From a virus: a DNA stretch of 42,847 nucleotides. The DNA lies in the IMG/VR virus record IMGVR_UViG_3300008450_000092, positions 1 to 42,847 of that record; one strand, given 5' to 3'. The position numbers were made by a program, and so were the translations under genes. Shown in pieces: positions 1 through 42,031 of this stretch. The first letter of the stretch is position 1; every line of letters starts with the position of its first letter. The notes below the pieces were generated by a model that did not search any database, was not told where the DNA came from, and worked only from the letters and a program-made list of their open reading frames with translations.

Positions 1-708
1 TCTGGTACAACTGGAACTTCCGGATCATCTGGTTCATCAGGAACTTCTGGTTCATCAGGAACAACCGGATCATCTGGTTCAACCGGATCTTCAGGATCCT
101 CTGGCACATCCGGAAGCACGGGATCAAGCGGATCATCTGGTAGTAGCGGAAGCTCAGGATCTTCTGGTTCAACAGGAACTTCCGGAACTTCCGGAACCTC
201 AGCATCATCCGGTTCATCCGGCTCATCTGGATCTTCAGGAACGTCCGGGGCAACTGGAACTTCTGGATCGTCCGGAACTTCTGGATCGTCCGGATCTTCA
301 GGTCAATCTGGAACTTCTGGTTCGGCAGGTTCAACCGGATCCTCAGGATCTTCAGGTTCAACTGGAACGTCCGGTTCATCTGGAACCGGCGGATCTTCTG
401 GAACTTCTGGCTCATCTGGCTCATCTGGCTCATCTGGATCAACAGGTAGTTCCGGTTCTACTGGAACATCTGGATCATCTGGAACAACTGGTTCTTCTGG
501 TTCTTCTGGTTCATCCGGGAGAGATGGCTCTTCTGGAACATCAGGAGTTTCCGGAACATCAGGAGTTTCCGGAACATCAGGCTCATCAGGCTCATCAGGC
601 TCAACCGGAACATCCGGCTCATCAGGATCTACCGGGACCTCTGGTTCATCGGGATCTACAGGGACCTCTGGTTCATCGGGTACATCAGGTTCTGCTGGAT
701 CATCTGGT
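1..708 (+). repeat. Gly-X-Y (Ser/Thr) repeat block 1
   Basis: Nine-base period with Gly at every third codon. X and Y are Ser or Thr, with scattered Ala, Gln, Val and a GRDG unit near 520. Ser is spelled with all six codons, so the DNA is less repetitive than the protein. The block is cut by the window start. Confidence 0.95.
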
Positions 709-3700
709 TTGAATGGTGACAGATACTCAACTACAACAACCGATTCAATTACTATACCAACCTCTCATCCAACCACCATCACATTCACGGTTGGGACTGG
801 ATTGGCTTACACAACTGGACAAACAGTAATTGTCGCGAATCCTTCTTCTGGAAATAAATTCGAAGCAACCGTTTCGTCATATAATCCCGGAACTGGTTCT
901 ATGACGGTGAATTCTAGTTCTAATACAGGGACCGGAACTTATTCCTCGTGGGAAGTGAACTTGGCTGGAGCACCAGGTCCTGCCGGTTCATCTGGTACTT
1001 CAGGTTCAACCGGAAGCTCTGGGTCTAGTGGATCCAGTGGAAGAGATGGTTCCTCTGGCTCATCTGGAACGACCGGATCCTCAGGATCTTCAGGCTCAAC
1101 CGGAACTTCCGGATCCTCAGGTTCTTCTGGAACAACTGGAACCTCTGGATCTTCTGGATCATCCGGATCATCTGGCTCATCAGGTTCTTCCGGAACTTCC
1201 GGAACATCTGGAACTTCAGGTAGGGATGGATCCTCTGGCTCGTCCGGAACATCCGGAACATCCGGAACATCTGGTTCAGCAGGCACTGCTGGTTCTTCTG
1301 GAACCTCTGGTTCTTCCGGAACATCGGGCACCTCCGGCACCTCTGGTAGCACCGGAACTTCCGGAACATCAGGCTCGTCGGGATCATCCGGTTCAAGTGG
1401 AAGTAGCGGCAGCTCGGGAAGTTCAGGAACTGCTGGATCATCTGGAACCACAGGAACTTCTGGAAGTTCAGGAACTGGAGGATCATCCGGTTCAACTGGA
1501 ACCTCTGGGACTTCCGGTTCTGGCGGCTCTTCGGGAAGTTCTGGATCCTCCGGATCTTCTGGTACTTCGGGATCTTCTGGCACATCAGGAACGGGTGGTT
1601 CATCAGGCTCAACCGGATCATCGGGATCATCAGGCTCAACCGGCACTTCAGGTTCATCAGGTTCATCAGGTTCATCAGGTTCATCAGGAAGCTCTGGAAC
1701 GTCAGGAACATCAGGAAGTACGGGAACGTCAGGCACATCCGGATCCTCAGGGTCTTCTGGATCAAGTGGATCTAGTGGATCTTCAGGAAGCTCAGGGTCA
1801 TCAGGTACAGCTGGATCGTCAGGAACTACTGGAACATCAGGGAGTTCAGGGACCGGTGGATCTTCTGGTTCAACTGGCACATCTGGAACATCTGGTTCTG
1901 CTGGAACTACAGGTTCTTCTGGTTCTTCTGGATCAACTGGAACATCGGGAACATCTGGATCAGCTGGTTCATCTGGATCTACAGGAACTTCTGGAACTTC
2001 TGGAACTTCAGGCTCATCTGGTTCTTCCGGATCAACCGGCTCTTCTGGATCATCGGGTACTTCTGGCTCTGCTGGGTCTACCGGTACATCAGGATCATCT
2101 GGTTCTTCCGGTACCTCTGGATCATCCGGATCATCAGGTACTTCAGGTACTTCCGGATCTTCGGGAACAACCGGAACTTCAGGATCATCTGGATCAACCG
2201 GATCGTCTGGTTCTTCGGGTTCAACAGGAACATCCGGATCTGCAGGAACTTCTGGCTCTTCTGGCTCCTCTGGTTCTACTGGTTCTACTGGAACTTCTGG
2301 TTCTAGCGGATCGACTGGAACTTCTGGAACATCAGGATCAAGCGGTTCGAGCGGTACTACTGGTTCCTCTGGATCAGCGGGCTCCTCTGGATCAAGCGGA
2401 TCAAGCGGAACATCAGGAACCTCTGGAACTGCTGGAACCTCTGGAACTGCTGGTTCGACCGGTACTTCTGGATCCTCGGGAAGTACTGGATCTTCTGGAT
2501 CTTCTGGATCATCTGGATCTACAGGATCATCTGGATCAACAGGTACATCCGGATCGAGCGGTTCGACTGGTACCTCTGGATCTTCAGGATCAACTGGCAC
2601 CTCAGGAACATCAGGATCTTCTGGATCTGCAGGTTCTTCTGGAACATCCGGCTCTTCTGGGTCAACCGGTACTTCAGGTTCTTCTGGATCAACCGGTACA
2701 TCTGGCTCTGCGGGTTCTGCGGGATCCTCTGGCTCTGCAGGTTCTTCAGGATCAGCAGGATCTTCCGGAACATCTGGAACCTCTGGCACATCTGGAACCT
2801 CTGGCTCGTCAGGATCAACTGGATCATCAGGAACATCTGGCTCATCCGGATCATCTGGATCTGCTGGATCTGCTGGATCTGCTGGATCTTCTGGAACATC
2901 TGGATCTTCTGGATCATCAGGAACAGCGGGTCTTAGTGGTGACAGATATGCTACTACTTCATCTACCTCAATTGCTATACCAACCAGTCACCCAACGACG
3001 ATCAATTTAACTGTTGGAACCGGTTTAGCGTATACTATTGGTCAAAGTATAATCATAGTTTCAACCAGCGGCGGTAATATCATTTACGCCACTGTTACAT
3101 CCTATAACGCATCAAATGGTGCAATGGTCGTTAGCTCGACCTCAAATTCCGGAACCGGTACATTTAACTCCTGGCAGGTCAATCTAGCAGGAGCAACCGG
3201 TCAATCTGGAACATCAGGTTCTTCAGGTTCTACTGGAACATCAGGAAGCTCTGGATCAAGCGGATCTAGTGGAACATCTGGAACATCTGGAACATCCGGA
3301 TCTTCAGGTTCTACCGGAACATCTGGTACATCAGGATCATCAGGATCTTCTGGAACTTCTGGCACTTCAGCAAGCTCAGGATCTTCAGGATCTTCAGGAT
3401 CTTCTGGATCATCAGGTACTTCAGGTACTTCAGGATCATCAGGCTCAACCGGATCATCAGGCTCAACCGGATCATCAGGCACGAGCGGAAGCTCTGGTAC
3501 TTCAGGTTCATCCGGAACCTCTGGATCATCAGGTACATCTGGTACATCAGGCTCTTCTGGCTCTTCTGGAACGGCCGGTACTTCTGGTACAGCTGGCACT
3601 TCTGGTACAGCGGGTACATCAGGATCTAGCGGTTCTTCAGGTAGCACTGGCTCATCTGGCTCATCTGGTTCTTCAGGCTCTTCGGGAACAGCCGGTACTT

Positions 3701-6700
3701 CAGGAACAGCAGGAACCTCCGGATCTTCTGGGTCTTCAGGTTCTTCTGGATCTTCGGGTTCATCAGGATCCTCTGGAACTACAGGTTCATCGGGCTCTTC
3801 GGGCACATCTGGATCAACAGGCTCTTCTGGAACTTCTGGGTCATCTGGTTCAACAGGTACTTCGGGATCATCTGGTTCAACCGGGACTTCTGGGACTTCT
3901 GGATCCTCTGGTACATCGGGTTCAAGTGGATCATCAGGATCATCTGGTTCAACTGGTTCTTCCGGCTCATCAGGTACATCTGGAACTGCAGGAACCGCAG
4001 GCACTGCAGGCACTGCAGGTTCTTCTGGAACAACTGGATCGTCGGGTACATCAGGATCGTCGGGTTCGAGTGGTTCAAGCGGATCAGGAGGATCATCTGG
4101 ATCATCAGGCTCAACAGGATCTTCCGGCTCAGCTGGAACATCTGGATCATCTGGGAGCACTGGCTCTTCCGGATCTTCAGGCTCGACTGGAACATCTGGA
4201 TCCTCAGGGTCAACAGGTACTTCCGGTTCATCAGGTACAACCGGATCCTCAGGAACGAGCGGTAGTACGGGATCTTCTGGATCTTCTGGATCTACCGGAA
4301 CGTCCGGATCCTCTGGTTCAAGCGGAACTTCGGGCTCTTCTGGATCTACAGGTTCTTCCGGATCAACAGGATCATCGGGTTCTACCGGTTCTTCCGGCTC
4401 ATCTGGTTCAACAGGAACTTCTGGCTCATCAGGTTCTACCGGAACTTCTGGTTCTAGCGGATCGACTGGTACTTCTGGCTCATCGGGATCAACTGGTACT
4501 TCTGGTTCATCTGGTTCTTCCGGCTCATCCGGTTCAACCGGCTCATCTGGTTCAACAGGATCCTCTGGCTCTTCAGGTTCTACAGGAACCTCTGGCTCTA
4601 GTGGTTCAACAGGATCCTCTGGCTCTTCAGGTTCTACAGGAACCTCTGGTTCTAGCGGATCAACAGGAACCTCTGGTTCATCAGGTTCTACCGGAACCTC
4701 TGGTTCTTCTGGATCAACCGGCTCATCAGGGTCTACTGGATCTTCTGGATCTACTGGAACATCTGGATCAACCGGCTCTTCAGGGACCTCTGGATCTTCT
4801 GGATCTACCGGAACATCTGGTTCTTCTGGCTCAACTGGCTCTTCCGGTTCTACTGGATCTTCGGGATCAACTGGAACATCTGGATCAACAGGTACCTCTG
4901 GATCAACCGGCTCATCTGGCTCATCTGGCTCATCCGGAACAACAGGATCTTCCGGCTCAGCAGGATCTTCGGGCTCAACTGGTTCTTCTGGCTCAACTGG
5001 TTCATCTGGAACTTCTGGATCTTCAGGATCTACTGGTACCTCAGGATCTTCTGGCTCAACAGGAACTTCCGGCTCTTCCGGCTCTTCAGGAACGTCTGGA
5101 TTGAGTGGAGACAGATATTTAACATCCTCAGTAACAAACCTAACTATAAGTTTAGGAACAAAAACATTGACCGTAGGGACCGGATTGGCTTATTCTGTAA
5201 ATCAGAGTGTAGACATTTCTTACGACACCAATAACTGGATGCATGGTGAAGTTTCTTCTTACAATTCGGGAACAGGTGTTCTTGTTGTTGTTATCACCAG
5301 CATTACAGGATCCGGTACCTATTCTTCTTGGATAGTTAATTTAGCCGGTGCAGTTGGACAAGCCGGTACCTCTGGTTCTTCCGGATCAACCGGAACTTCG
5401 GGATCTAGCGGTACCACCGGAAGCAGTGGTTCTACTGGCACTTCGGGTTCTTCTGGCTCAACCGGATCTACAGGTTCATCTGGTAGTTCTGGAACAAGCG
5501 GTTCTTCAGGAACTACCGGATCATCCGGTTCAACTGGATCATCCGGTTCAACTGGATCTTCTGGATCTACTGGTACATCAGGATCAACCGGATCATCTGG
5601 CACATCGGGATCTTCTGGGTCTACTGGCACATCAGGATCATCGGGATCTACTGGATCTTCCGGATCTACTGGTTCTTCTGGCTCAACTGGTACATCAGGA
5701 TCAACCGGATCATCTGGCACATCAGGATCTTCTGGGTCTACTGGTACATCAGGATCATCCGGTTCAACTGGATCATCTGGTTCAACTGGTTCTTCAGGAA
5801 CATCAGGAACATCAGGATCATCTGGTTCAACCGGTTCTTCGGGATCCTCTGGAACCACCGGATCTTCCGGATCGACGGGTTCTTCTGGTTCTTCTGGATC
5901 TTCAGGTACCTCCGGCTCTACCGGTACATCTGGATCAACAGGATCTTCCGGATCGACAGGTTCTTCTGGTTCTTCTGGATCTTCAGGTACCTCCGGTTCA
6001 ACAGGCACATCAGGAACTTCAGGTTCTACGGGTTCTACTGGATCATCTGGAAGCTCAGGATCAAGTGGATCATCCGGTTCAACAGGCACATCTGGTTCCT
6101 CTGGATCAACAGGTTCTACCGGATCATCTGGAAGCTCAGGATCAACCGGATCAACCGGATCTTCTGGATCAGCTGGTTCTTCTGGCTCAACAGGTACTTC
6201 TGGATCATCTGGATCCTCCGGTTCAACAGGAACTTCGGGTTCTTCAGGATCAACTGGTTCTTCAGGATCAACTGGTTCTTCAGGTTCTTCAGGCTCTTCT
6301 GGATCAACCGGATCTTCTGGCTCTTCTGGATCAACCGGAACATCAGGAACTTCCGGTATCGAAGGAAACGTCGCTATTTACAAATATAGTACAAACACAG
6401 GAAGCGGTGATCCAGGAAGCGGATATTTCAGATTTGTTGGACAGAATTGGACTTACGCAAATTCTTTTGTCATCAATATTGATGACGTATCATTTTCCCC
6501 AGGGGCTAATATTGGCACTCTATGGGATCTTTTGACAACCGGCAGTGGTAGTGGTCCTTTGCTAAACACAATCATCAAACTAGTCAAGAAGACCGATACC
6601 TCAATTTACAAGTATCTCAAGATTATCGATGCTAGCTCTGTTTCTGGATACGGAAGTTTCACTGTAGATGTTATATCTGTTAGTTCTTCATCAGCCAGCA

Positions 6701-8718
6701 ACGATGATGAAATCATGTTGGAATTGGCGATCTCCGGTCAAGCGGGAGCAGCTGGTTCGGCAGGAACATCCGGAGTATCAGGATCTTCTGGAACTTCAGG
6801 CTCTTCAGGTTCTTCTGGGTCGAGCGGACAATCAGGAAGTTCAGGAAGCTCTGGAAGCTCTGGAAGTACGGGAAGCTCAGGATCTTCTGGAATTAGCGGA
6901 AGTTCTGGAACATCAGGATCTTCCGGCTCAACTGGAACATCAGGTTCATCTGGTTCAGCAGGGTCTACCGGAACATCCGGATCGTCAGGATCTGCAGGTA
7001 CAAGCGGTACAAGTGGTACAAGTGGTACAGCGGGAAGCTCGGGTGTTAACGGTGCTTCAACAGGTGCTTGCGGTCTGTGGAACCTCTCATCAAACCAGCC
7101 TCCACTCACAGGTGAGGTAAACACTGTCGTAGGTGGTACAACCACGAATGTTATGTCTACCTCTGTAACTTCTATGAGGGTTTATGAGGTGGATGCTTCA
7201 ACAACTAACTGGGCAACATTCTTTGGTAATCTGACCATTAATTCAACGGTTACCGCAGCAACAGCCAATAATCCGGGTCAAACCTGGACGTTTAGAATTA
7301 CATCGATCGTCGATAGTGGTAACTATTACACATTCGGTGTAACAAATATCAATTCAACTGGTGGGGTATCTCAGATAGGTGGATCAGTTAACCTCTGTTT
7401 CAGTATAGCGGGAAGCTCAGGAACAAGCGGGACATCTGGCTCAAGCGGAACATCTGGCTCAAGCGGAAGTAGCGGAAGTAGCGGAAGCCGTGGTTCTTCA
7501 GGATCATCTGGATCTACCGGTTCTTCCGGATCGACAGGATCATCTGGATCTACCGGTTCAACCGGAACTTCTGGTTCTTCTGGATCAACAGGTTCAACCG
7601 GATCTTCTGGTTCATCAGGATCAAGCGGTATCAGTGGAAGTTCTGGATCATCAGGATCTACCGGTTCAACTGGTTCTTCTGGCTCAAGCGGATCCTCAGG
7701 TAGCAGTGGATTAGAAGGTAATATTGGTATATTCAAATATAGCACCAACACAACAATAGCTGATCCTGGAACAGGTTATTTCAGGCTTGCGAATGCCTGG
7801 TCTAATACGTCTAACCAGAACATGGCTATTGACGATGTTACTTTTGCCCCAGGAGCAAATATCGGGTCCCTTTGGAATTTGATTGCTAGCCAAACCTTAA
7901 TTAATACGGTTCTCAAATTTGTTAAGGTAGGGGATTCAACGATATACAAGTACCTGAGAATTTATGACTTTAACTCCCAGACTGGCTGGGAAGGATTCAC
8001 TGTCGAGGTTATCGCAGTTGGAGGTAGCGCAAGCAATGATGATCAGTTTATGCTCGAAATTGCACTCGCTGGATCTGGCGCAAGCGGAACAGCTGGTTCG
8101 GCTGGATCCTCTGGATCATCCGGATCATCTGGCGTAAGTGGTGCAGCAGGATCTTCTGGATCTTCTGGATCTTCTGGAATCAGCGGATCATCAGGATCAT
8201 CAGGATCATCAGGAAGCTCGGTTTCAGTTTCAGGTACTAACAATAGAGTAGTCAAATTCACCTCTGCAACTACTGTCGGAAATTCTAACGCTTCTGACGA
8301 TGGATCAACATTCCAGATCGATACTTCAAAAATGAAGGTAACAACTTCGATCGCCGTAGGAAACATAACACCTTCAGCAACTGTAGGCCGATTGGATGCT
8401 GCTAATGATGTGGTAGCATTTTCGACTTCTGACATGAGATTGAAAACAAACTTAACTGTTATCGACGATGCATTGGATAAAGTTAATTCCCTAACCGGCT
8501 ATGAATTTGATTGGATTGAAGAATTCAAGGATCACCACGGTTTCGAAGGACACGACGTTGGAATTATTGCTCAAGACGTTGAAGCGGTTTTACCCGAGGT
8601 TGTAACCACCAAATTCAATGGATTCAAGGGCGTGAAATACGACAAGATGGTTCCTCTGCTTATTGAAGCTATTAAGGAATTATCTAGACAGGTTGATGAG
8701 CTAAAAAACCAAAAGTAA
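1..8718 (+). CDS. Giant collagen-like Ser/Thr-rich tail fibre with C-terminal S74 chaperone (5' end outside window)
   Basis: The frame is open from the first base to the TAA at 8716-8718, so the protein starts upstream; at least 2905 residues are visible. The TTG at 709 is internal, because the repeat pattern continues unbroken through it. Most of the chain is Gly-X-Y triplets (GSS, GTS, GST, GSA, GTA) with almost no proline. Folded islands interrupt them: three related domains opening GDRY (709, 2932, 5101), two opening EGN (6358, 7711) and one unique domain (7045-7413). The C-terminus matches the peptidase S74 intramolecular chaperone of phage fibres: SDMRLK, GIIAQDVEAVLPEV and a long terminal helix. 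The Ser-Lys pair five residues apart (window codons 2810 and 2815) is the expected autocleavage dyad. In this family the chaperone drives trimerisation and is then released. It probably forms a long trimeric receptor-binding fibre. Glycosyltransferase genes follow at once. Confidence 0.9.
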   Translation, partial: SGTTGTSGSSGSSGTSGSSGTTGSSGSTGSSGSSGTSGSTGSSGSSGSSGSSGSSGSTGTSGTSGTSASSGSSGSSGSSGTSGATGTSGSSGTSGSSGSSGQSGTSGSAGSTGSSGSSGSTGTSGSSGTGGSSGTSGSSGSSGSSGSTGSSGSTGTSGSSGTTGSSGSSGSSGRDGSSGTSGVSGTSGVSGTSGSSGSSGSTGTSGSSGSTGTSGSSGSTGTSGSSGTSGSAGSSGLNGDRYSTTTTDSITIPTSHPTTITFTVGTGLAYTTGQTVIVANPSSGNKFEATVSSYNPGTGSMTVNSSSNTGTGTYSSWEVNLAGAPGPAGSSGTSGSTGSSGSSGSSGRDGSSGSSGTTGSSGSSGSTGTSGSSGSSGTTGTSGSSGSSGSSGSSGSSGTSGTSGTSGRDGSSGSSGTSGTSGTSGSAGTAGSSGTSGSSGTSGTSGTSGSTGTSGTSGSSGSSGSSGSSGSSGSSGTAGSSGTTGTSGSSGTGGSSGSTGTSGTSGSGGSSGSSGSSGSSGTSGSSGTSGTGGSSGSTGSSGSSGSTGTSGSSGSSGSSGSSGSSGTSGTSGSTGTSGTSGSSGSSGSSGSSGSSGSSGSSGTAGSSGTTGTSGSSGTGGSSGSTGTSGTSGSAGTTGSSGSSGSTGTSGTSGSAGSSGSTGTSGTSGTSGSSGSSGSTGSSGSSGTSGSAGSTGTSGSSGSSGTSGSSGSSGTSGTSGSSGTTGTSGSSGSTGSSGSSGSTGTSGSAGTSGSSGSSGSTGSTGTSGSSGSTGTSGTSGSSGSSGTTGSSGSAGSSGSSGSSGTSGTSGTAGTSGTAGSTGTSGSSGSTGSSGSSGSSGSTGSSGSTGTSGSSGSTGTSGSSGSTGTSGTSGSSGSAGSSGTSGSSGSTGTSGSSGSTGTSGSAGSAGSSGSAGSSGSAGSSGTSGTSGTSGTSGSSGSTGSSGTSGSSGSSGSAGSAGSAGSSGTSGSSGSSGTAGLSGDRYATTSSTSIAIPTSHPTTINLTVGTGLAYTIGQSIIIVSTSGGNIIYATVTSYNASNGAMVVSSTSNSGTGTFNSWQVNLAGATGQSGTSGSSGSTGTSGSSGSSGSSGTSGTSGTSGSSGSTGTSGTSGSSGSSGTSGTSASSGSSGSSGSSGSSGTSGTSGSSGSTGSSGSTGSSGTSGSSGTSGSSGTSGSSGTSGTSGSSGSSGTAGTSGTAGTSGTAGTSGSSGSSGSTGSSGSSGSSGSSGTAGTSGTAGTSGSSGSSGSSGSSGSSGSSGTTGSSGSSGTSGSTGSSGTSGSSGSTGTSGSSGSTGTSGTSGSSGTSGSSGSSGSSGSTGSSGSSGTSGTAGTAGTAGTAGSSGTTGSSGTSGSSGSSGSSGSGGSSGSSGSTGSSGSAGTSGSSGSTGSSGSSGSTGTSGSSGSTGTSGSSGTTGSSGTSGSTGSSGSSGSTGTSGSSGSSGTSGSSGSTGSSGSTGSSGSTGSSGSSGSTGTSGSSGSTGTSGSSGSTGTSGSSGSTGTSGSSGSSGSSGSTGSSGSTGSSGSSGSTGTSGSSGSTGSSGSSGSTGTSGSSGSTGTSGSSGSTGTSGSSGSTGSSGSTGSSGSTGTSGSTGSSGTSGSSGSTGTSGSSGSTGSSGSTGSSGSTGTSGSTGTSGSTGSSGSSGSSGTTGSSGSAGSSGSTGSSGSTGSSGTSGSSGSTGTSGSSGSTGTSGSSGSSGTSGLSGDRYLTSSVTNLTISLGTKTLTVGTGLAYSVNQSVDISYDTNNWMHGEVSSYNSGTGVLVVVITSITGSGTYSSWIVNLAGAVGQAGTSGSSGSTGTSGSSGTTGSSGSTGTSGSSGSTGSTGSSGSSGTSGSSGTTGSSGSTGSSGSTGSSGSTGTSGSTGSSGTSGSSGSTGTSGSSGSTGSSGSTGSSGSTGTSGSTGSSGTSGSSGSTGTSGSSGSTGSSGSTGSSGTSGTSGSSGSTGSSGSSGTTGSSGSTGSSGSSGSSGTSGSTGTSGSTGSSGSTGSSGSSGSSGTSGSTGTSGTSGSTGSTGSSGSSGSSGSSGSTGTSGSSGSTGSTGSSGSSGSTGSTGSSGSAGSSGSTGTSGSSGSSGSTGTSGSSGSTGSSGSTGSSGSSGSSGSTGSSGSSGSTGTSGTSGIEGNVAIYKYSTNTGSGDPGSGYFRFVGQNWTYANSFVINIDDVSFSPGANIGTLWDLLTTGSGSGPLLNTIIKLVKKTDTSIYKYLKIIDASSVSGYGSFTVDVISVSSSSASNDDEIMLELAISGQAGAAGSAGTSGVSGSSGTSGSSGSSGSSGQSGSSGSSGSSGSTGSSGSSGISGSSGTSGSSGSTGTSGSSGSAGSTGTSGSSGSAGTSGTSGTSGTAGSSGVNGASTGACGLWNLSSNQPPLTGEVNTVVGGTTTNVMSTSVTSMRVYEVDASTTNWATFFGNLTINSTVTAATANNPGQTWTFRITSIVDSGNYYTFGVTNINSTGGVSQIGGSVNLCFSIAGSSGTSGTSGSSGTSGSSGSSGSSGSRGSSGSSGSTGSSGSTGSSGSTGSTGTSGSSGSTGSTGSSGSSGSSGISGSSGSSGSTGSTGSSGSSGSSGSSGLEGNIGIFKYSTNTTIADPGTGYFRLANAWSNTSNQNMAIDDVTFAPGANIGSLWNLIASQTLINTVLKFVKVGDSTIYKYLRIYDFNSQTGWEGFTVEVIAVGGSASNDDQFMLEIALAGSGASGTAGSAGSSGSSGSSGVSGAAGSSGSSGSSGISGSSGSSGSSGSSVSVSGTNNRVVKFTSATTVGNSNASDDGSTFQIDTSKMKVTTSIAVGNITPSATVGRLDAANDVVAFSTSDMRLKTNLTVIDDALDKVNSLTGYEFDWIEEFKDHHGFEGHDVGIIAQDVEAVLPEVVTTKFNGFKGVKYDKMVPLLIEAIKELSRQVDELKNQK
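709..978 (+). other. Fibre domain A, copy 1
   Basis: Non-collagenous island of about 90 residues. It starts LNGDRY, has a central VGTGLAY and ends SSWEVNLAGAPG. The beta-rich composition (alternating Thr/Val/Ile) suggests a small beta domain. Copies 2 and 3 lie at 2932 and 5101. I do not recognise a named family. Confidence 0.8.
979..2931 (+). repeat. Gly-X-Y (Ser/Thr) repeat block 2
   Basis: About 650 residues of uninterrupted Gly-X-Y. Two GRDG units occur near 1040 and 1220; the rest is Ser/Thr/Ala/Gly in X and Y. It is open in other frames too, which creates long false ORFs on both strands. Confidence 0.95.
2932..3201 (+). other. Fibre domain A, copy 2
   Basis: Starts LSGDRYATT, keeps IPTSHPTT and VGTGLAY of copy 1, and ends SWQVNLAGATG. 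It is the closest relative of copy 1, so this pair looks like the more recent duplication. Confidence 0.8.
3202..5100 (+). repeat. Gly-X-Y (Ser/Thr) repeat block 3
   Basis: About 630 residues of Gly-X-Y. It contains a near-exact 54-bp tandem duplication (units starting at 4558 and 4612, beginning ggatcctctggctcttcagg), a sign of recent slippage or unequal recombination. Confidence 0.95.
5101..5358 (+). other. Fibre domain A, copy 3
   Basis: Starts LSGDRYLTS, keeps VGTGLAY, and ends SSWIVNLAGAVG. It is shorter and more divergent than copies 1 and 2: the IPTSHPTT segment is missing. Confidence 0.75.
5359..6357 (+). repeat. Gly-X-Y (Ser/Thr) repeat block 4 with nested DNA duplications
   Basis: About 330 residues of Gly-X-Y. 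Two longer DNA duplications are visible: units about 117 bp apart starting at 5581 and 5698, and units 81 bp apart starting at 5860 and 5941. Both preserve the triplet frame. Confidence 0.9.
6358..6738 (+). other. Fibre domain B, copy 1
   Basis: Island of about 127 residues starting IEGNVAIYKYSTNT. It contains PGANIGTLWDLL and ends with NDDEIMLELAISG. It is paired with the copy at 7711. The fold is not recognised; it looks mixed alpha/beta. Confidence 0.8.
6739..7044 (+). repeat. Gly-X-Y repeat block 5
   Basis: About 100 residues of Gly-X-Y between domain B copy 1 and domain C, with a few Val, Ile and Gln substitutions. Confidence 0.9.
7045..7413 (+). other. Fibre domain C (unique)
   Basis: Single-copy island of about 123 residues starting VNGASTGACGLW and ending NLCFSIAG. 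Its two cysteines, near the two ends, are rare in this protein and could bond to each other or bind metal. No family recognised. Confidence 0.7.
7414..7710 (+). repeat. Gly-X-Y repeat block 6
   Basis: About 99 residues of Gly-X-Y between domain C and domain B copy 2, with one GSRG unit near 7490. Confidence 0.9.
7711..8073 (+). other. Fibre domain B, copy 2
   Basis: Starts LEGNIGIFKYSTNT, keeps PGANIGSLWNLI and ends NDDQFMLEIALAG. It aligns along its full length with the copy at 6358. Confidence 0.8.
8220..8718 (+). other. Fibre tip and peptidase S74 chaperone domain
   Basis: A short beta-rich tip segment (VSGTNNRVVKFTS) is followed by the S74 chaperone. The Ser of TSDMRLK (codon at 8428) and the Lys five residues later (codon at 8443) correspond to the known Ser-Lys autocleavage pair. 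The last 25 or so residues form a predicted coiled-coil helix, as in other members. Confidence 0.88.
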
Positions 8719-8733
8719 AGGAACTTCCCCCGT

Positions 8734-8760
8734 GATAGATCCTATAATTTGGGATCTATC
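8734..8760 (+). promoter_or_regulatory. Perfect 9-bp hairpin abutting the start codon of the next gene
   Basis: GATAGATCC (8734-8742) pairs with GGATCTATC (8752-8760) around a 9-nt loop, and the ATG begins at 8761. There is no downstream T-run, so it is not a standard intrinsic terminator. It may control translation of the glycosylation gene or protect the fibre mRNA 3' end. Confidence 0.5.
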
Positions 8761-11700
8761 ATGGAAAAAATCCTTTATATAGCACCTCACTTATCTACTG
8801 GTGGGTTACCCCAATTTCTATTAAAAAAGATAGAGCTTCTGCAGCTCGATTACGAAATTTCCCTCGTTGAATACTCAAATATTACCGGTGGAAAATTCAT
8901 AGTGCAGAGACGCCAACTGGAAGATCTTCTCGGTGAGAATTTCCATTCTCTGGGGGATGATAAAAACCAGATAATAGATCTAATTGAAAGGATTGGACCG
9001 GATATCATCCATTTAGAAGAAATCCCCGAATTTTTTATTCCCGATGAAATAGCGGATAAAATTTACACCAGCGATAGGAAATACAAGATATTCGAAACAT
9101 CGCACGATTCTTCGTACGATACTAGGCTGAAAAGATTTATGCCGGACAAATTTTTGTTTGTGTCGGATTTTCAGAAAAAACAGTATCAGAACCTGAATAT
9201 TCCCTCAGAAGTTGTTGAATACCCGATTGATTACCCTCTCAGGAATCTCAGCAAAGAAAAAGCATGCGTTCATCTAGGACTGGACCCGGATAAAAAGCAC
9301 ATATTGCACGTTGGTTTATTTACGCCCAGAAAGAATCAGAAGGAGTTTTTTGAATATGCAAAAAACCTACCGGAATTCGAGTTTCATTGCGTGGGCAACC
9401 AGGCAGAAAACTTCCAGTATTACTGGGAACCTTTAATGAATGATAGACCTCATAATCTGACCGTTTGGGGAGAAAGATCGGATGTTGATCTTTTTTATCA
9501 GTTTGCCGATTTAATTTTGTTTACATCCAAGGGGAACAGTACAGACAAAGAAACCATGCCTTTGGTTATAAGAGAAGCAATATCTTGGAAAATACCGACT
9601 TTGATCTACGATCTTCCTGTTTACGAGTCTTACTTTGATAACTATCCCAACATCGATTATCTCGAAAATGATTTTGAAATGAATATCAAACGAATTAAAG
9701 AAAAATTCATGGGAACATCCAAGCCGACAAAAGAAGTCAAAAAATGTATCATAGTCGATACTTTTATTACCAGTCCAGATAAGGAAGACCTCCTGATCGA
9801 AAATCTTAAAACTATAAAGCAATTTGGACATGACATTTTTCTAGTTTCACACTCAAAGCTTTCCGCTAAGGTTCTTGATGAAGTTGAATATTTTCTTTTC
9901 GATAAAGACAACACTTTTAACAGTAACCACGTTTACAGCTGGAGAAAAGATGGTGATTTAGAAATTAGAATCAATATCAGAAAAAGCCACGAATGGCCAA
10001 TAATCAGATCCATGAGACTCGCATTCAACACTGCAAAGTCACTTGGATACGAGTACTTTATTTTTACTGAATTTGACCATCACTACTCTGCTTCAGACGT
10101 AGAAAGGGTTCAAAGAATAATTGAAAACAGCATTGAAAATGACAAGGAATTCGTTTTCTGGGCTCCTCAAGAGAAAGTTGATTATGGTGGGTATGGGAAC
10201 GAGACAGGCATATTCTACGAGACTTGTTTCTTTTCTGGCTACCTCGATTCATTCCTGGACGTTTTCGAGTCAAGTTTCCCGAAGACAATAGATGAATATA
10301 ACCAAAATTTTGCTTCCGCCTTCCCAAATTCTTTAGAATTCTGGTTTTGGAAGTATTTTTCCCCTCTAGCAGACAATTCAACGGTTATTCCAAACTACGT
10401 AAAGCTTGATCTTAAAGATTCTGAAATTAACGTGTCTTCCTACCAGAATTTCAAATCGATAATACTGCCTAGCGAAAAATCACATTTCCTATACATAACT
10501 AATGACAATTTCATCGATTATGACTTTGCCGTTTACATCGACGACGAGAAAAAGCATGAGTTCAGTCTAAATAGATTTTATAAACTTATTAAACTTGATA
10601 AGGATTGTAAAATAAGAATAGATTCATTTTCCTCCGGCAAGATGTTTAAATCCGAAACAATAGAGTACAAGAAATCAGAGGCTGAAGAATATAGCAAAAA
10701 CGGTACCATCATATTTAATCAAGGCGAGCACGACATGTTTAATATCTCATTCGAGTCCACAGACAATAAAGTTTATATCGACTATAACGAAGATATAAGA
10801 AGGGAAGTATTAGTCAGTATTAAAGATATTGATTCAAAGGCAACTATTTGGAGCTTTAAAAATGTGGCTGAAAACAAATCTAGATGGTGGTGTGTACCAA
10901 CGCCCAAACATGTTTTGGACTACCAAAATCAGATAAACTTCGGTGGTTTTATAGTTGATATTTTCGAGGACGGGGAAAAAATATATTCTGATTCGATTAG
11001 GATAAAAAAATCTCTTGTATTCAAACCTGAGATGGATGTAACTATCACCGAGCCTATATTTTCAAATTATAACGAATTCTTTGTAGATAAAATATATTCT
11101 CATCTGGATGTTCAATCGTTGGATGTTGTGTTCGACATCGGAGCGAATGTTGGCTTATGGACAGAGTGGATCTTAAGACAGAATGCATCCAAAGTATACT
11201 GCTTTGAGCCCAATAAGGTTGCCTTAGAGGTTCTCAGAAGATTACATGGCGGAAAAGATAACGTTGAGATTATAGATAAAGCTGTGGATTCCGAGGTAAG
11301 AACGATCGAATTCTTCTATTCCGATTCCAATTCATTAATCTCAGCTACTGAGCAGCACGGTGAATTGAATAAAAGTTATGAGGTTACAACAATCACCATT
11401 TCCGACGCGATAGAGAAGTTTGGTGTGGATCATATCGACCTGATTAAAATGGATATCGAGGGAGCTGAATTCAAAATATTCGAAAGCTTAGACGACTCTA
11501 TCTATGAAATCACAGATTCCTTTTTGATAGAATTCCATGCATTCTATTATTCCGATGGAAAGGAGAGGGAAGAAAGAATCATCGAGAAGATGAAGGAGAA
11601 AGGATACTTCGTGGAAAATCATCCCGGTGGGATTTTTGCAACCAAACACAAAAAATGCTTTTATGTAAACAATTCAGCTTTTGCACTCGACGTTCCCGGT

Positions 11701-12405
11701 AAAGGTTCTTTGGAAAAGGTAAACCTATATAATGGTGCGGTTGATTTCAGCTGGGAAAAGCTTGCTCAGAAAAGCTTGATAGGTTATCATCATGCCTATC
11801 ACGAAATGTTCTTCTGTGACGGTCATCCTACCGGATGTGTATACGAGATTGCAGAATGCAAGATTGAACCGGGAGATGTTGTTTTGGACGCTGGAGCTAA
11901 CATTGGTATCTTTACCAATTATGCTTATAGAAGAGGTGCTAAAAAAATATACTCCTTCGAGCCTTGCAGCGAAGCTTTCCAAGCATTGATCATGAATTCC
12001 GGAGAAATAGCAGAAACCTACAAATTAGGCTTATCTTTCGAGCCTGGATCTGAAAAGCTATATTACGAGCAAGGCAATACAATGTCTTCTTCAGTTAAGT
12101 CTGGTGAGGGTGAATTTGAACACATTCTGGTAGAATCAATTGATTCACTGCACAGAAAAAATCTTTTCGACCACCTGGATTTTTTGAAAATTGATGCAGA
12201 GGGATCGGAGATTGATATCATGAATGGTGCGAGAGAAATGCTGGCTGAGCAAAAGATCAAAAAAATCAGCTTTGAATATCACTCCTCACTATTCGACCCC
12301 GAATACATTAATAGGCTCTGCGAAGATATGATATCGTATGGATATCTTTACCGCTGCGAGTGGATTGATGATAACATATCTTTCTATTATTTCTGGTTAG
12401 AATGA
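8761..12405 (+). CDS. Four-domain glycan enzyme: GT4-like, second GT-like, two FkbM methyltransferases
   Basis: I chose the ATG at 8761 rather than the in-frame TTG at 8749, because the TTG lies inside the hairpin and the protein begins well with MEKILYIAPHLSTGG. Residues 1-315 or so resemble a GT4 glycosyltransferase (HVGLFTPRKNQKEF; ETMPLVIREAISWKIP). Residues about 325-540 resemble a GT-A-type domain (CIIVDTFITSP; FIFTEFDHHYS). Two FkbM-type SAM-dependent methyltransferase domains follow: FDIGANVGLWTEW near 790 with KMDIEGAEFKIFE, and LDAGANIGIFTNY near 1040 with KIDAEGSEIDIM. Such fusions build and O-methylate surface or protein-linked glycans. It lies directly downstream of the Ser/Thr-rich fibre and overlaps the next gene by ATGA, so it is probably part of a fibre-modification operon. 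The acceptor is inferred. The linker at about 540-780 is unassigned. Confidence 0.8.
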   Translation: MEKILYIAPHLSTGGLPQFLLKKIELLQLDYEISLVEYSNITGGKFIVQRRQLEDLLGENFHSLGDDKNQIIDLIERIGPDIIHLEEIPEFFIPDEIADKIYTSDRKYKIFETSHDSSYDTRLKRFMPDKFLFVSDFQKKQYQNLNIPSEVVEYPIDYPLRNLSKEKACVHLGLDPDKKHILHVGLFTPRKNQKEFFEYAKNLPEFEFHCVGNQAENFQYYWEPLMNDRPHNLTVWGERSDVDLFYQFADLILFTSKGNSTDKETMPLVIREAISWKIPTLIYDLPVYESYFDNYPNIDYLENDFEMNIKRIKEKFMGTSKPTKEVKKCIIVDTFITSPDKEDLLIENLKTIKQFGHDIFLVSHSKLSAKVLDEVEYFLFDKDNTFNSNHVYSWRKDGDLEIRINIRKSHEWPIIRSMRLAFNTAKSLGYEYFIFTEFDHHYSASDVERVQRIIENSIENDKEFVFWAPQEKVDYGGYGNETGIFYETCFFSGYLDSFLDVFESSFPKTIDEYNQNFASAFPNSLEFWFWKYFSPLADNSTVIPNYVKLDLKDSEINVSSYQNFKSIILPSEKSHFLYITNDNFIDYDFAVYIDDEKKHEFSLNRFYKLIKLDKDCKIRIDSFSSGKMFKSETIEYKKSEAEEYSKNGTIIFNQGEHDMFNISFESTDNKVYIDYNEDIRREVLVSIKDIDSKATIWSFKNVAENKSRWWCVPTPKHVLDYQNQINFGGFIVDIFEDGEKIYSDSIRIKKSLVFKPEMDVTITEPIFSNYNEFFVDKIYSHLDVQSLDVVFDIGANVGLWTEWILRQNASKVYCFEPNKVALEVLRRLHGGKDNVEIIDKAVDSEVRTIEFFYSDSNSLISATEQHGELNKSYEVTTITISDAIEKFGVDHIDLIKMDIEGAEFKIFESLDDSIYEITDSFLIEFHAFYYSDGKEREERIIEKMKEKGYFVENHPGGIFATKHKKCFYVNNSAFALDVPGKGSLEKVNLYNGAVDFSWEKLAQKSLIGYHHAYHEMFFCDGHPTGCVYEIAECKIEPGDVVLDAGANIGIFTNYAYRRGAKKIYSFEPCSEAFQALIMNSGEIAETYKLGLSFEPGSEKLYYEQGNTMSSSVKSGEGEFEHILVESIDSLHRKNLFDHLDFLKIDAEGSEIDIMNGAREMLAEQKIKKISFEYHSSLFDPEYINRLCEDMISYGYLYRCEWIDDNISFYYFWLE

Positions 12406-13259
12406 GATTGATCGCATTTTCCGACGAAAATTTTATTCCGGTTGTTCAGAATCTAGTTTCCTCTCTGGACAAGATCTATCCCCATGCACCCTTAACTTAT
12501 TATATGGTCGGGTTCCATAGAAAGAATTGTTTAAAAAGCGAAAACCTTAAGATCTCTTACAAAACATTCTTCCCCAAATCGGGACTACCAAATTTGAATT
12601 TTCTGAAGCCTAGTATACTCCTGCAATCCCTGACCGATCACGAAGATGATGTTTTCATTTTTCTCGACAGTGACATAACGATAGGAAAAAGATTCAACCC
12701 AGAAAGTATACTTCAGAAAAACCTAGAGTTACCCCTAGCATCATTTGGTCCATATGAACTTCCATATACATTCAGAACATTTGAAGGCGGAAGAACAGAA
12801 ACATACACACCGGATTTATTAATGGATTATTTCGGGATCAGATACAAATCGATGCGATATGTACAGAATTGTCTAATTGCTTATCACAGAAAACATCAAA
12901 ATTTTTTATTGGAATGGGAATCGATTTGCTTAAACAAATATTTGCTTAAAGAGCATTGGAGGTACTTTTCATTTCAGGACGAAACAGCTTTCAATGTGCT
13001 CCTCTGGAAATATTCAGCAACAGAGAATCTTGAACATATATTTGTTAATACACACAAATTTACCACATTTCAATTAATAGAGGAGAGTGAAAATATAGTC
13101 AATGCCAACATCGATGAAAATCCTTATGAATTCTGCGGGGAATCATCTAAAATCATGTTTTATCACGGGACTAAGGATACGAACCAAAATTTAAAAATAC
13201 AGAAATACATTTATGAAAATTATACAGGTAACCCCAGGACTTCTCCCTATACCTCCTAA
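12402..13259 (+). CDS. GT-A-fold glycosyltransferase-like protein
   Basis: 285 residues. The ATG overlaps the previous stop (ATGA), which suggests translational coupling. VFIFLDSDITIG carries a DSD motif at residues 89-91, the usual metal/nucleotide-sugar binding signature of GT-A enzymes. The layout (start RLIAFSDENF, then PLTYYMVGFH, then the DSD near residue 90, then FQDETAFNVLLW) resembles nucleotide-sugar-dependent transferases acting on surface glycans. There is no signal peptide or membrane segment. Its last 47 bases overlap the next gene. Donor and acceptor cannot be read from sequence. Middle member of the putative fibre-glycosylation operon. Confidence 0.7.
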   Translation: MRLIAFSDENFIPVVQNLVSSLDKIYPHAPLTYYMVGFHRKNCLKSENLKISYKTFFPKSGLPNLNFLKPSILLQSLTDHEDDVFIFLDSDITIGKRFNPESILQKNLELPLASFGPYELPYTFRTFEGGRTETYTPDLLMDYFGIRYKSMRYVQNCLIAYHRKHQNFLLEWESICLNKYLLKEHWRYFSFQDETAFNVLLWKYSATENLEHIFVNTHKFTTFQLIEESENIVNANIDENPYEFCGESSKIMFYHGTKDTNQNLKIQKYIYENYTGNPRTSPYTS

Positions 13260-15351
13260 TGGATGGGGAGCGGTTGAAAAAATTATTTGGGAATATCACA
13301 ATCAATCGATCAAGCTTGGCCATGGGTCAGTTATAAAGTATCTAGATGAAGTTAAACCAGGTGAACAAACCATAGTTCATGTGCACGTAGCCAATCTTGC
13401 AATCCTCTGCCACGAAAGAGGCATACCCTATATTTTCACGATGCATGATCACCATGCTCATCTTTATGGGAAGGACTCCCCGGTATACAAAGAGAATAAG
13501 AAAGCACTTAGAAATGCTTTAATTGGATTTGTACCAGCAAAATACCTAGTGAAATATTTTGGATACCCAAACATTGAGTATATGAGCCACGGGGTTAATA
13601 CAAGCTTCTTTTCATGCGAAAGGGATTACACAAACACCCAGCACAGTTTGTTATGCGTAGCAAACAATGGGTACATCCACGATCAGAGCTTTGACAGGAA
13701 GGGATTTTCCTTTGCACTCCAAGCCGCAGAAAAAATGAACCTCCCGATTACAATCTGCGGTCCTAGTAACAATAGATCGTTCTTTGAAAAATATCAGTGC
13801 TCGTACGATAAATTAACCATCAAATATGATCTAACTGAGGATCAGCTGGCGAATGAATATAAAAATCATACCATTTTTATCCACGCGTCAGAATTAGAAG
13901 CTGGCCATCCTAATTTAACTGTTCTCGAAGCAATGTCCTCAGGCTTGGTTGTCTTATCTACTTTAGAAGACGGACAGGATACACCTGGGTTAATTCGAAT
14001 AACTAGAGAATTGGAAGATATTGAGGACAAGATAAAAAATTCAATCAGTGATTTCGAAAACCTTTCTAAGAGATCAAGGGAGTGTGCAACGGAGCTAGAC
14101 TGGTCAAATGTTACCCAAAAATTGATTTCTAGGTACGAATCAATTTCATCGGAAACGATGAAAAAGTCTTTGGTTTATAATTACTCGATGACTCCGATCT
14201 CTTTCCGTGAAAAGAAAGAGCCTCAAAATACTTTCCACTATTCTTTCATAGAAAGCCCAAAATGTGAAATTTTAGGTCCGGTTTCAAAAGAATATCTGGT
14301 TAAATTCGTAGACCACGATACAAACGAGGTTGTCTACGTAAGCTCAATTAAAAACAACTGCTGGGCGGCGGCTTCCAAAAAATACTTTATTAACTGGAGG
14401 ATTGAGGTTTATGACGGGGAGGAAATAGTGGATCAACATGTTTTTGATGCAACGGATAAGAGGGTGTATATCCACATCGATTCTAAAGCTCTCGGAGACA
14501 CGATAGCATGGTTCCCATACGTTGAAGAATTCAGAAAGAAGCACAATTGCAAAATAGTATGTTCAACCTTCTGGAATGATCTTTTCAAAAATTCATATTC
14601 TCACTTCGAATTCACACCTCCCGGATCAACAGCCCATGGATTGTATGCGATGTATTCTGTTGGCTGGTATTATTTTGAAAATGGATCACTAGATTACGAT
14701 AAGAATAAGAGAGACATTAAGAAAATACCGCTGCAGCAAACAGCTACGGATTTTCTTGGATTAGACTTCACAGAAGTCCGACCGATGATAGATCTACCTA
14801 TAGAGAGAAGACATGTTGCTGGTGATTATGCATGTATCGCTCCACACGCTTCGTCCCATGCAAAATATTGGAACAGAAAGGGGGGATGGCAAAAATTGGT
14901 TAATTGGTTCAATGATCAAAAAATACTTCCGGCTATGATCACACACGAGCCTTTGGGTGATGACTGGCATGATTCTAAGCTAGGTGGCAAACTTAAAAAT
15001 GTAGTGGATAGGACTGGGAATTTCCCGATAGAAAACAGGATCAACGAGATCATTCACTCAAAAATTTATGTTGGGCTAAGTTCCGGTCTCAGCTGGTTAG
15101 CTTGGGCTTTAAATAAACCTACTGTTGTCATTTCAGGATTCACTGAAGAATTCCTTGAACCTTCTTCTGTTATCAGAATCATTAATAAAGAGGTCTGTCA
15201 CGGATGTCAAACCGAATTCAAATTAGATGCTGGCGATTGGGAATGGTGCCCTAGAAATAAGGGGACGGAGGATCAATTTATCTGTACTAAGGAAATAAGC
15301 TCCGAATCTGTTATAGATGCTATTGTTAAAAGCGGAGTCCTAGATATATAG
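13213..15351 (+). CDS. GT4 fused to GT9/BAHT-type protein O-heptosyltransferase
   Basis: The ATG at 13213 overlaps the previous gene by 47 bases. It gives a typical GT4 start, MKIIQVTPGLLPIPPNGWG. Residues 1-310 or so are GT4, with the E-x7-E stretch ELEAGHPNLTVLEAMSSG. Residues about 417-712 match the GT9-like O-heptosyltransferases of bacterial autotransporters (Aah/TibC, BAHT family): RVYIHIDSKALGDTIAWFPY, IAPHASSHAKYWNRKGGW, GLSSGLSWLAWAL. Four cysteines (662, 665, 679, 691; C-x2-C then C and C) sit where family members have an iron-binding cysteine motif. Those enzymes transfer heptose to serines of repetitive adhesins, so this is the strongest sign that the cassette modifies a protein rather than lipid. 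The GT4 half may extend the glycan. Ends in LDI-TAG, which also forms a GATATATAG box. Confidence 0.8.
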   Translation: MKIIQVTPGLLPIPPNGWGAVEKIIWEYHNQSIKLGHGSVIKYLDEVKPGEQTIVHVHVANLAILCHERGIPYIFTMHDHHAHLYGKDSPVYKENKKALRNALIGFVPAKYLVKYFGYPNIEYMSHGVNTSFFSCERDYTNTQHSLLCVANNGYIHDQSFDRKGFSFALQAAEKMNLPITICGPSNNRSFFEKYQCSYDKLTIKYDLTEDQLANEYKNHTIFIHASELEAGHPNLTVLEAMSSGLVVLSTLEDGQDTPGLIRITRELEDIEDKIKNSISDFENLSKRSRECATELDWSNVTQKLISRYESISSETMKKSLVYNYSMTPISFREKKEPQNTFHYSFIESPKCEILGPVSKEYLVKFVDHDTNEVVYVSSIKNNCWAAASKKYFINWRIEVYDGEEIVDQHVFDATDKRVYIHIDSKALGDTIAWFPYVEEFRKKHNCKIVCSTFWNDLFKNSYSHFEFTPPGSTAHGLYAMYSVGWYYFENGSLDYDKNKRDIKKIPLQQTATDFLGLDFTEVRPMIDLPIERRHVAGDYACIAPHASSHAKYWNRKGGWQKLVNWFNDQKILPAMITHEPLGDDWHDSKLGGKLKNVVDRTGNFPIENRINEIIHSKIYVGLSSGLSWLAWALNKPTVVISGFTEEFLEPSSVIRIINKEVCHGCQTEFKLDAGDWEWCPRNKGTEDQFICTKEISSESVIDAIVKSGVLDI
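15343..15351 (+). promoter_or_regulatory. GATATATAG box (possible late promoter)
   Basis: The box overlaps the last codons of the glycosyltransferase. Its TATATA starts 17 nt before the ATG at 15362. Chance from coding (Asp-Ile-stop) is possible, so confidence is lower than for the intergenic copies. Confidence 0.35.
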
Positions 15352-15674: not shown

Positions 15675-16274
15675 ATGGCATTCAGAATTCAACTTCGAAA
15701 CGACACCTATGCAAACTGGACGGAAGTAAATCCAATTCTTCTACAAGGAGAACCAGCTTACGAAAATAATACCAACCGATTGAAAATCGGAAACGGCGCG
15801 TCTGGCTATGCCCAGTTGCCGTATTTCTATGGTAATATCGAGTATGTAAATGGATTGACCGGATCGATAGGCATTACCGGCGGAACCGGTATAAATGTAA
15901 CCACAGGTGCTTCTGGAGCCACTATTACTATTACTTCCGACCGTCCATATAAACTTTACACTTGTAATTTGAATGCGGCAGGAACTAATGATCCGACTGA
16001 GATAGTTTTAGAAAGCGATTTCACAGCGGATCTGGTTTGGACCAGAGGAACTACCGGAGTATATGTTGCAGGATTCACTGGAGCAACCGGAGTAGTTGGT
16101 GACTTTGGACACAATGCTTCTAAGGTTATGATTACTTCTGTAAGCTCTACCGTCAATAGCCACATTTATCCTCTTTATATTGATGCGGATAGCATTCAGA
16201 TTACCCAAACTGGAGTTACCGGAGCATATCTTGATGGACTCAGTAACTGTTTCGTAGAAATCAAGGTTTACTAA
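15675..16274 (+). CDS. Tail-fibre-type protein with phage fibre N-terminal motif
   Basis: 199 residues. The N-terminus has the pattern common at the base of phage tail fibres and hyaluronidase-like proteins: IQLRNDTYANW, then NPILLQGEPAYENNT and RLKIGNG, followed by PYFYG. The rest is beta-rich with short Gly/Thr repeats (GLTGSIGITGGTGIN; FTGATGVVG). That suggests a small trimeric attachment or fibre-connector protein. Chaperone and receptor-binding tip are absent, so it may be a short fibre or a linker for the giant fibre upstream. Confidence 0.65.
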   Translation: MAFRIQLRNDTYANWTEVNPILLQGEPAYENNTNRLKIGNGASGYAQLPYFYGNIEYVNGLTGSIGITGGTGINVTTGASGATITITSDRPYKLYTCNLNAAGTNDPTEIVLESDFTADLVWTRGTTGVYVAGFTGATGVVGDFGHNASKVMITSVSSTVNSHIYPLYIDADSIQITQTGVTGAYLDGLSNCFVEIKVY

Positions 16275-16585: not shown

Positions 16586-17068
16586 ATGATAATCGTTATA
16601 TACGGTCAACCCTGCTCAGGCAAAACAACCCTCTCTAAAAAATTGAATGGCTGGCTTAAGTCACAGTCGAGAAGAATCAACTTACACTTTATGGATGGCG
16701 ATTCATTTCGCAAAATCTTTGCCAATAAAGACTATTCAAGGGAAGGTAGGAATAGAAATCTCCAACTTGCTTCTGTTGTTGCACATTATGAGCATAGCTT
16801 GAATGAAGTTGTTCTAATGTCATTCGTTTACCCATACAAGGAAGCGAGAGAATATCTTAACGAACTAACCGGACATGATGTTATGTGGGTATACACCTAC
16901 TATGACACGATGCTATATCAGCGCGGAAGAGAATCTTTCCACGTGGCAGACTTTGAGCATCCAGAAGAAAATGAAGCTGATCTGATCTTAAACACCGGAT
17001 CTATGTCTGAGCAGGAATGCTTAGAAGAGATAGTTAAAACCTTCCAGAAGAAATATCCTAATTTTTAA
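16586..17068 (+). CDS. APS-kinase-like P-loop kinase
   Basis: 160 residues with a Walker A motif at the very start (IYGQPCSGKTTLSKKL, residues about 5-20). FMDGDSFRKIF follows, as in adenylylsulfate kinases where DGD..R binds substrate, then SFVYPYKEAREY. This is the CysC-type arrangement, but with Pro-Cys in the P-loop instead of the usual Ser-Gly, so the true substrate may be another small nucleotide. It is followed by a nucleotidyltransferase and a DUF2061 membrane protein, an association that fits nucleotide or sulfate activation. It could supply an activated donor for virion modification, but that is inference. Confidence 0.65.
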   Translation: MIIVIYGQPCSGKTTLSKKLNGWLKSQSRRINLHFMDGDSFRKIFANKDYSREGRNRNLQLASVVAHYEHSLNEVVLMSFVYPYKEAREYLNELTGHDVMWVYTYYDTMLYQRGRESFHVADFEHPEENEADLILNTGSMSEQECLEEIVKTFQKKYPNF

Positions 17069-17081
17069 ACCATACACAAAT

Positions 17082-17420
17082 ATGAAATATGCAATGTTTA
17101 TTGGGCGCTATCAGCCCCTACACGACGGCCACATTTGGCTTTTTAATTCAAAAATCGAATCAGGAACACCAGTTCTGATCTGCGTAAGAGACGTTCAGCC
17201 TGATGAAAAAAACCCCTGGACTGCATCTCAGGTCGTTGAAAACATCGAATCTAGACTGCAAGACTGGGTGAGCTCGGGAATGCTGAAAGTTATCGTTATC
17301 CCTGACATCGAAGGAGTTTATTATGGAAGAGACGTTGGATACAAGGTTGAACAGATTCAAGCTCCCCAAGAAATCCAGAATATCTCTGCAACCAAGATCA
17401 GAAAAGAAATGGGGATATGA
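17082..17420 (+). CDS. Compact cytidylyltransferase/NMNAT-type nucleotidyltransferase
   Basis: 112 residues. The N-terminus MFIGRYQPLHDGH carries the HxGH nucleotide-binding motif of the cytidylyltransferase/NMNAT superfamily, and the C-terminus ISATKIRKEM is the matching ISSTxIR motif. It is shorter than usual (about 130-180 residues) but both active-site ends are present. The enzyme would join a nucleotide to a phosphorylated or sulfated small substrate. It overlaps the next gene by ATGA. The neighbouring APS-kinase-like gene suggests the two act in sequence; the substrate is unknown. Confidence 0.75.
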   Translation: MKYAMFIGRYQPLHDGHIWLFNSKIESGTPVLICVRDVQPDEKNPWTASQVVENIESRLQDWVSSGMLKVIVIPDIEGVYYGRDVGYKVEQIQAPQEIQNISATKIRKEMGI

Positions 17421-42029: not shown

Positions 42030-42031
42030 CA

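Follow-up and report, generated by a model that had tools for sequence, protein, structure and literature searches.

What does a phage do with a set of glycosyltransferase and methyltransferase genes that directly follow the gene for a long, repetitive tail fibre? Glycosyltransferases near phage tail fibres are usually taken as tools that alter the host surface. We addressed this question for a 42.8-kb phage contig from IMG/VR (IMGVR_UViG_3300008450_000092, 42,847 nucleotides, hereafter the window), in which the left 15 kb hold a Ser/Thr-rich collagen-like fibre gene and three overlapping genes that we call the cassette. This cassette offers a specific alternative to host-surface alteration. 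We consider it likely that a T4-like aquatic phage devotes these three genes to protein glycosylation and that its own fibre is their substrate. One member of the conserved enzyme set beside the fibre is closely related to an enzyme known to coat proteins with sugar, and these aquatic viruses therefore probably coat their own fibres with sugar.

The fibre and the enzyme beside it

The third gene of the cassette (13213..15351, plus strand, 712 aa) fuses an N-terminal glycosyltransferase domain of family GT4 ('GT4b'; PF00534, 2e-7) to a domain of the BAHT (Aah/TibC) type of protein O-heptosyltransferases (14179..15348, plus strand, residues ~340-705). The protein passes the Aah/TibC equivalog model TIGR04414 (284.7 bits against a cut-off of 200, 1e-84, residues 351-705), and its residues 323-701 match TibC at 4e-56 in phmmer. 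Profile comparison of the BAHT domain gave 9e-88 for TibC versus 0.0015 for lipopolysaccharide heptosyltransferase I, and the model for that WaaC-type GT9 enzyme, TIGR02193, scored 21.3 bits against a cut-off of 185.3. An AlphaFold model of the domain (pLDDT 87) combines an N-terminal beta-barrel with a GT-B catalytic fold, and the 21 best matches in the PDB are all TibC chains (TM 0.83 by target length). TibC carries four iron-binding Cys and a catalytic Asp110 (PMC4358343). The corresponding Asp429 and the iron-finger residues Cys662, Cys665, Cys679 and Cys691 (TibC 339, 342, 358 and 370) are invariant in an alignment of 26 phage BAHT sequences. By sequence and modelled fold, we firmly assign the C-terminal part of gene 3 to the BAHT enzymes of the Aah/TibC type. 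Our literature search, which covered open-access full texts, turned up no report of a phage BAHT enzyme.

The fibre gene (1..8718, plus strand) has its 5' end beyond the window, so that the open frame of 2,905 aa is a lower bound; a 99%-identical contig (IMGVR_UViG_3300008259_000066, L404) carries at least 3,883 aa of this frame, again without its 5' end. The Gly-(Ser/Thr)-(Ser/Thr) repeats of the fibre are interrupted by several short folded, non-repeat inserts and followed by a non-collagenous C-terminal domain (8242..8715, plus strand) that includes a Peptidase_S74 intramolecular chaperone (PF13884, 5.9e-16). Gly-X-Y triplets in runs of at least five number 704 and account for 2,112 of the 2,905 residues. 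In these triplets the X position is Ser in 67% and Thr in 28%, and the Y position is Ser in 71%, Thr in 20% and Ala in 6%. The whole frame holds 19 Pro, with essentially none inside Gly-X-Y runs. Tandem arrays with periods that are multiples of 9 bases extend over most of 1-8215, and the collagen family PF01391 matches in five stretches (3.4e-37). The C-terminal domain shares 41-45% identity with fibre proteins from Prochlorococcus phage P-SSM2 and Synechococcus phage S-CREM2 and is also related to the C-terminal domain of the fibre-type protein of HTVC008M. The PF13884 chaperone and the neck, terminase, sheath, tube and portal genes downstream mark the protein as a T4-like tail fibre. In the fibres of relatives the Y position is Ser-rich regardless of X, at times alternating with Asn or Asp, and the Gly-X-Y frame of one 298-kb phage runs to at least 5,130 codons (L420 610-15999).

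Gene 1 of the cassette (8761..12405, alternative start 8749, plus strand) begins with another GT4 domain ('GT4a'; PF00534, 5e-10), the most conserved part of the cassette, and carries two FkbM methyltransferase domains (PF05050, 1.7e-31 in two stretches; TIGR01444, 4.7e-48); the middle of the protein (residues ~325-770) matched no Pfam family. Gene 2 (12402..13259, plus strand, 285 aa) overlaps gene 1 by 4 nucleotides and gene 3 by 47. Its full-length protein had no match in Pfam or the PDB, an alignment-free structure model was of very low confidence, and its DSD motif is only suggestive of a GT-A glycosyltransferase. A preliminary description of this DNA had listed a fibre of at least 2,900 residues made up mostly of Gly-(Ser/Thr/Ala)-(Ser/Thr/Ala), three overlapping genes directly after it, two GT4-type domains, two FkbM methyltransferases and a GT9/BAHT-like domain with a Cys motif. 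All of these were recovered here, both FkbM domains lying in gene 1 and all four Cys being kept. The two other transferase domains in that list found no backing in the middle of gene 1 or in gene 2.

Association of the enzyme with Ser/Thr-rich fibres

To place the locus among its relatives, viral contigs were scanned for the BAHT domain, which gave 238 relatives, the best 80 of which were examined. IMG/VR contigs are fragments, and absence from a contig is not absence from the phage. In most loci that reach that far, a GT4a relative (42-65% identity, generally more conserved than BAHT) opens the cassette, and it is often followed by other enzymes and then by GT4b and BAHT. Where more than 5 kb precede GT4a, all 18 BAHT loci have a Gly-X-Y fibre upstream on the same strand, and where more than 3 kb do, 26 of 27 have a fibre upstream; after clustering of the BAHTs at 80% identity, the figures are 10/10 and 13/14, respectively. 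L071 was considered as a fibre-less case and set aside, as only 4.1 kb precede its GT4a and L012, with the same type of cassette, has its fibre 6.4 kb upstream.

The association depends on the composition of the fibre. Two contig samples were chosen by DNA pattern alone, one for Ser/Thr Gly-X-Y repeats (49 listed) and one for any Gly-X-Y repeats (41 listed). BAHT was present in 13 contigs of the first sample versus one of the second, and this lone contig proved to have a Ser/Thr fibre (Ser plus Thr fraction 0.77, no Pro). When the long contigs were pooled and split at a Ser plus Thr fraction of 0.6, BAHT was found in 14 of 54 at or above this value versus 0 of 36 below it (Fisher p = 0.0006, taking the counts as independent). 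GT4a was similarly confined (11/49 versus 0/41), whereas a generic GT4 domain (PF00534), used as a control, showed no bias towards Ser/Thr fibres (17/49 versus 10/41, p = 0.36). In a sample picked by terminase, Gly-X-Y repeats occurred in 17 of 19 contigs with BAHT versus 8 of 17 without (p = 0.01). The enzyme is not equally common in the presence and absence of Ser/Thr Gly-X-Y fibres. Together, the identity of the BAHT domain and the fibre at nearly every well-flanked BAHT locus support the proposal of the preliminary description that the phage glycosylates its own fibre.

Two apparent exceptions were dropped on inspection. Seven BAHT-carrying terminase relatives lack the strict Ser/Thr DNA pattern; five of them have a fibre with a Ser plus Thr fraction of 0.72-0.73 and a Y position alternating between Ser, Asn and Asp, and the remaining two (G095 and G119) stop short of the fibre region. 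L014 and L016 have Gln/Pro-rich Gly-X-Y repeats (Ser/Thr 0.15-0.2), but next to these in the L014 record, on the same strand, lies a further Gly-X-Y frame that is several thousand residues long and Ser/Thr-rich (0.67).

These comparisons bear on the possibility that the cassette alters the host surface (O-antigen or lipopolysaccharide) against superinfection, and lies beside the fibre since both belong to a host-recognition island. PMC7029224 reads pelagimyophage glycosyltransferases, including rfaE, in this way and places many of them ahead of the neck gene, within a host-recognition cluster. The window cassette is also upstream of a T4-type neck gene, and GT9 enzymes are mostly lipopolysaccharide heptosyltransferases. 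However, gene 3 groups with the protein-modifying Aah/TibC equivalog rather than with WaaC (21 bits against the cut-off of 185 for the WaaC-type model), and BAHT and GT4a are enriched with Ser/Thr fibres while generic GT4 is not. A role at the host surface does not predict that the enzyme should depend on how rich the fibre is in Ser/Thr, or that adjacency should be kept after reordering. We therefore regard this explanation as unlikely; part of the cassette may act on the host.

Gene order and distance

The usual order is fibre followed by cassette, and several phages have a gap of 1-6 kb between fibre and GT4a. In L084, L122, L139 and L148, BAHT comes immediately before the fibre. BAHT also lies 1.3 kb upstream in a 249-kb phage and 55 bases upstream of one fibre in a 166-kb phage, and the two genes are divergent in the 735-kb phage LR756501 (L322) and in L406. 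Measured from the nearest edges seen, fibre and BAHT are separated by 0.05-1.8 kb in phages of 298, 249, 436 and 166 kb. Of the genomic evidence for a functional link, the strongest kind is adjacency that outlasts rearrangement. Linkage by descent only, in which one phage lineage inherited both features without a functional connection, would fit the many related loci and the near-identical contigs among them. We give it hardly any credence, as order and orientation have changed with adjacency kept in records of up to 735 kb, and the terminase relatives vary in both features together (17/19 versus 8/17).

The arrangement is also present in a cultured phage, Microcystis phage Mel-JY01 (PP395634.1, 190 kb). 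A Gly-X-Y frame with a Ser plus Thr fraction of 0.79 lies at 2-3049 (L321) and, if the genome is circularly permuted, runs on in frame across the record end for 771 more codons (L370 9688-12000). The frame is mis-annotated, with antisense hypothetical proteins over much of its length. Downstream of it come a Ser-rich structural protein and then a 1,226-aa protein that combines GT4 and BAHT-type domains with a weak methyltransferase domain. The Ser-rich protein between fibre and enzyme suggests another possible substrate: the enzymes could glycosylate a different virion protein near the fibre, either this one or the Mtd_N-type tail protein at 15675-16274 of the window, with the fibre as a bystander. 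The 1-6 kb between fibre and GT4a in several phages would be compatible with this. However, the Gly-X-Y fibre is the sole element common to the arrangements examined, while the intervening genes vary from locus to locus, and we find a substrate other than the fibre quite improbable.

Some loci show further variation. In a 373-kb phage a sulfotransferase gene (L403 5587-6453) lies directly between the Gly-X-Y fibre and the glycosyltransferases, a hint that fibres or glycans may be sulfated. The 436-kb phage has a second BAHT gene (L415 8222-9346), with two smaller Ser/Thr Gly-X-Y frames about 18 kb away (L425). Fibre and BAHT also occur together on two contigs binned into metagenome-assembled genomes of Flavobacteria (L371 and L372); these are probably phage contigs, and their binning hints at Bacteroidota hosts.

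Proposed mechanism

If the fibre is the substrate, we infer the activity of the enzymes, heptose as the sugar, the order of steps and the purpose as follows. By analogy with TibC, the expected reaction is heptosylation of a repetitive, Ser-rich protein. The TibC/Aah-like BAHT domain would attach heptose to Ser, and perhaps also to Thr, in the repeats, with ADP-heptose of the host as donor, and heptose would probably be the first sugar added to the fibre. This transfer would take place in the cytoplasm of the infected cell, ahead of assembly. Judging by domain type, the two GT4 enzymes may then lengthen the glycan and the FkbM domains may O-methylate it, yielding a densely glycosylated, methyl-capped fibre. 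Such a coat could confer solubility or protease resistance on an otherwise unstable proline-free repeat, support the triple helix or affect adhesion.

A stronger version, in which BAHT-placed sugars on many Ser/Thr residues replace hydroxyproline and allow stable triple-helical fibres with chains of 3,000-5,000 residues, is possible, and we hold it only tentatively. Glycosylation of BclA is thought to aid the hydration of its triple helix (PMC8968730), and by this analogy stabilisation of a triple helix is a reasonable idea. Shielding has been reported for mycobacteriophage virions in an antibody setting (cited in PMC12619734); shielding of this type may not apply to aquatic phages.

Several observations weigh against glycosylation of the fibre by the cassette. 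The Fisher p-values assume independence, and the counts are not independent, given that the phages are related and some contigs near-identical. No BAHT was found in 40 of the 54 long Ser/Thr Gly-X-Y contigs, some of which are fragments and some of which have short repeats only; with many such fibres lacking BAHT in the contig, Ser/Thr Gly-X-Y fibres do not in general require this enzyme for glycosylation. G030 and G046 have both fibre and BAHT, about 38 kb apart, and a 636-kb phage (L323) has BAHT with no Gly-X-Y repeat within 15 kb. Finally, an rfaE-II-like nucleotidyltransferase was found in only 5 of 31 records with BAHT, none over the curated cut-off, so that the host would have to supply the ADP-heptose. 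Heptose precursor genes had been considered as support and were discarded as weak, with no match above cut-off. Overall, the cassette is best read as a variation on known protein O-heptosylation, and the enzyme class itself is not new.

Other features of the locus

In the gap between fibre and cassette, a very stable hairpin (8730..8764, plus strand, z = -8.3) buries the ATG of gene 1 at 8761. It was rejected as a conserved control element, as it was not seen in five other loci. The motif ATAATTTGG, at 8743-8752 of the window, recurs in L005, L009, L018, L041, L057, L060 and L080, where it precedes the GT4a match by 39-60 bases, and is possibly a promoter element. Two other loci encode a weak GT25-type domain, below the Pfam cut-off, at the C-terminus of the first cassette protein (L049 6245-8992 and L002 6316-9012). 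The GT25 family takes in animal collagen galactosyltransferases.

The right two thirds of the window form a T4-like myovirus virion region, with a neck-type protein, terminase, large tail sheath, two tail-tube paralogues, late sigma factor, head closure and two portal-type genes; the latter are adjacent (40395-42847) and both match the T4-type portal family. Among named phages, Sphingomonas phage PAU and Tenacibaculum phage PTm1 have the closest terminases, at about 32% identity. A tblastn search with 28945-30255 gave no match. The genes at 16586-17068 (APS-kinase-like) and 17082-17420 (nucleotidyltransferase-like) together resemble one fused phage family, phrog_10255. They were rejected as a candidate HldE, as they look like APS kinase and NMN adenylyltransferase types.

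Comparison with known systems

Glycosylation of the fibre, if true, would mean that virion O-glycosylation is widespread in aquatic T4-like and huge phages and that protein O-heptosylation reaches beyond bacterial adhesins. It would also supply genes for very long, glycosylated collagen-like polymers that need no proline hydroxylation. For this cassette the enzyme family is known, the candidate substrate is clear and one phage with the same pair (Mel-JY01) is in culture.

The closest parallels are Aah with AIDA-I and TibC with TibA (BAHT, TIGR04414). The enzyme is the same by sequence, fold, catalytic Asp and iron finger, and in both settings it adjoins a long, Ser-rich, repetitive surface protein. 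Unlike Aah and TibC, the phage enzyme is fused to a GT4 domain and stands in a cassette with further glycosyltransferases and FkbM methyltransferases. Its presumed substrate is a collagen-like fibre instead of a beta-helical autotransporter; no autotransporter was present among the scanned window genes, and the neighbour of BAHT is the fibre with its S74 chaperone. Serine-rich-repeat adhesins follow the same logic as the phage cassette, a Ser-rich repeat beside its own Gtf glycosyltransferases. Their enzymes are different, and accessory Sec genes were absent among the annotated domains of the window.

Among phages, the host-recognition cluster of pelagimyophages and cyanomyophages (PMC7029224) occupies the same genomic place and mixes fibre genes with glycosyltransferases; its authors propose modification of the host O-chain, and the available part of that paper draws no link to BAHT or Ser/Thr repeats. 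Mycobacteriophages carry glycans on their own virion proteins (Freeman et al. 2023, cited in PMC12619734). Unlike the placement proposed here, these sit at the C-termini of capsid and tail-tube subunits, and neither BAHT nor a collagen-like fibre is described in the available part of PMC12619734. BclA of Bacillus spores (PMC8968730) and the mimivirus collagens with the glucosyltransferase R699 (PMC9546862) share with the system proposed here a Gly-X-Y protein that has dedicated glycosylation enzymes. In those systems the repeats contain Pro or the acceptor is hydroxylysine, and the enzymes are unrelated, whereas the phage fibre combines a repeat without Pro with a GT9-type BAHT enzyme.
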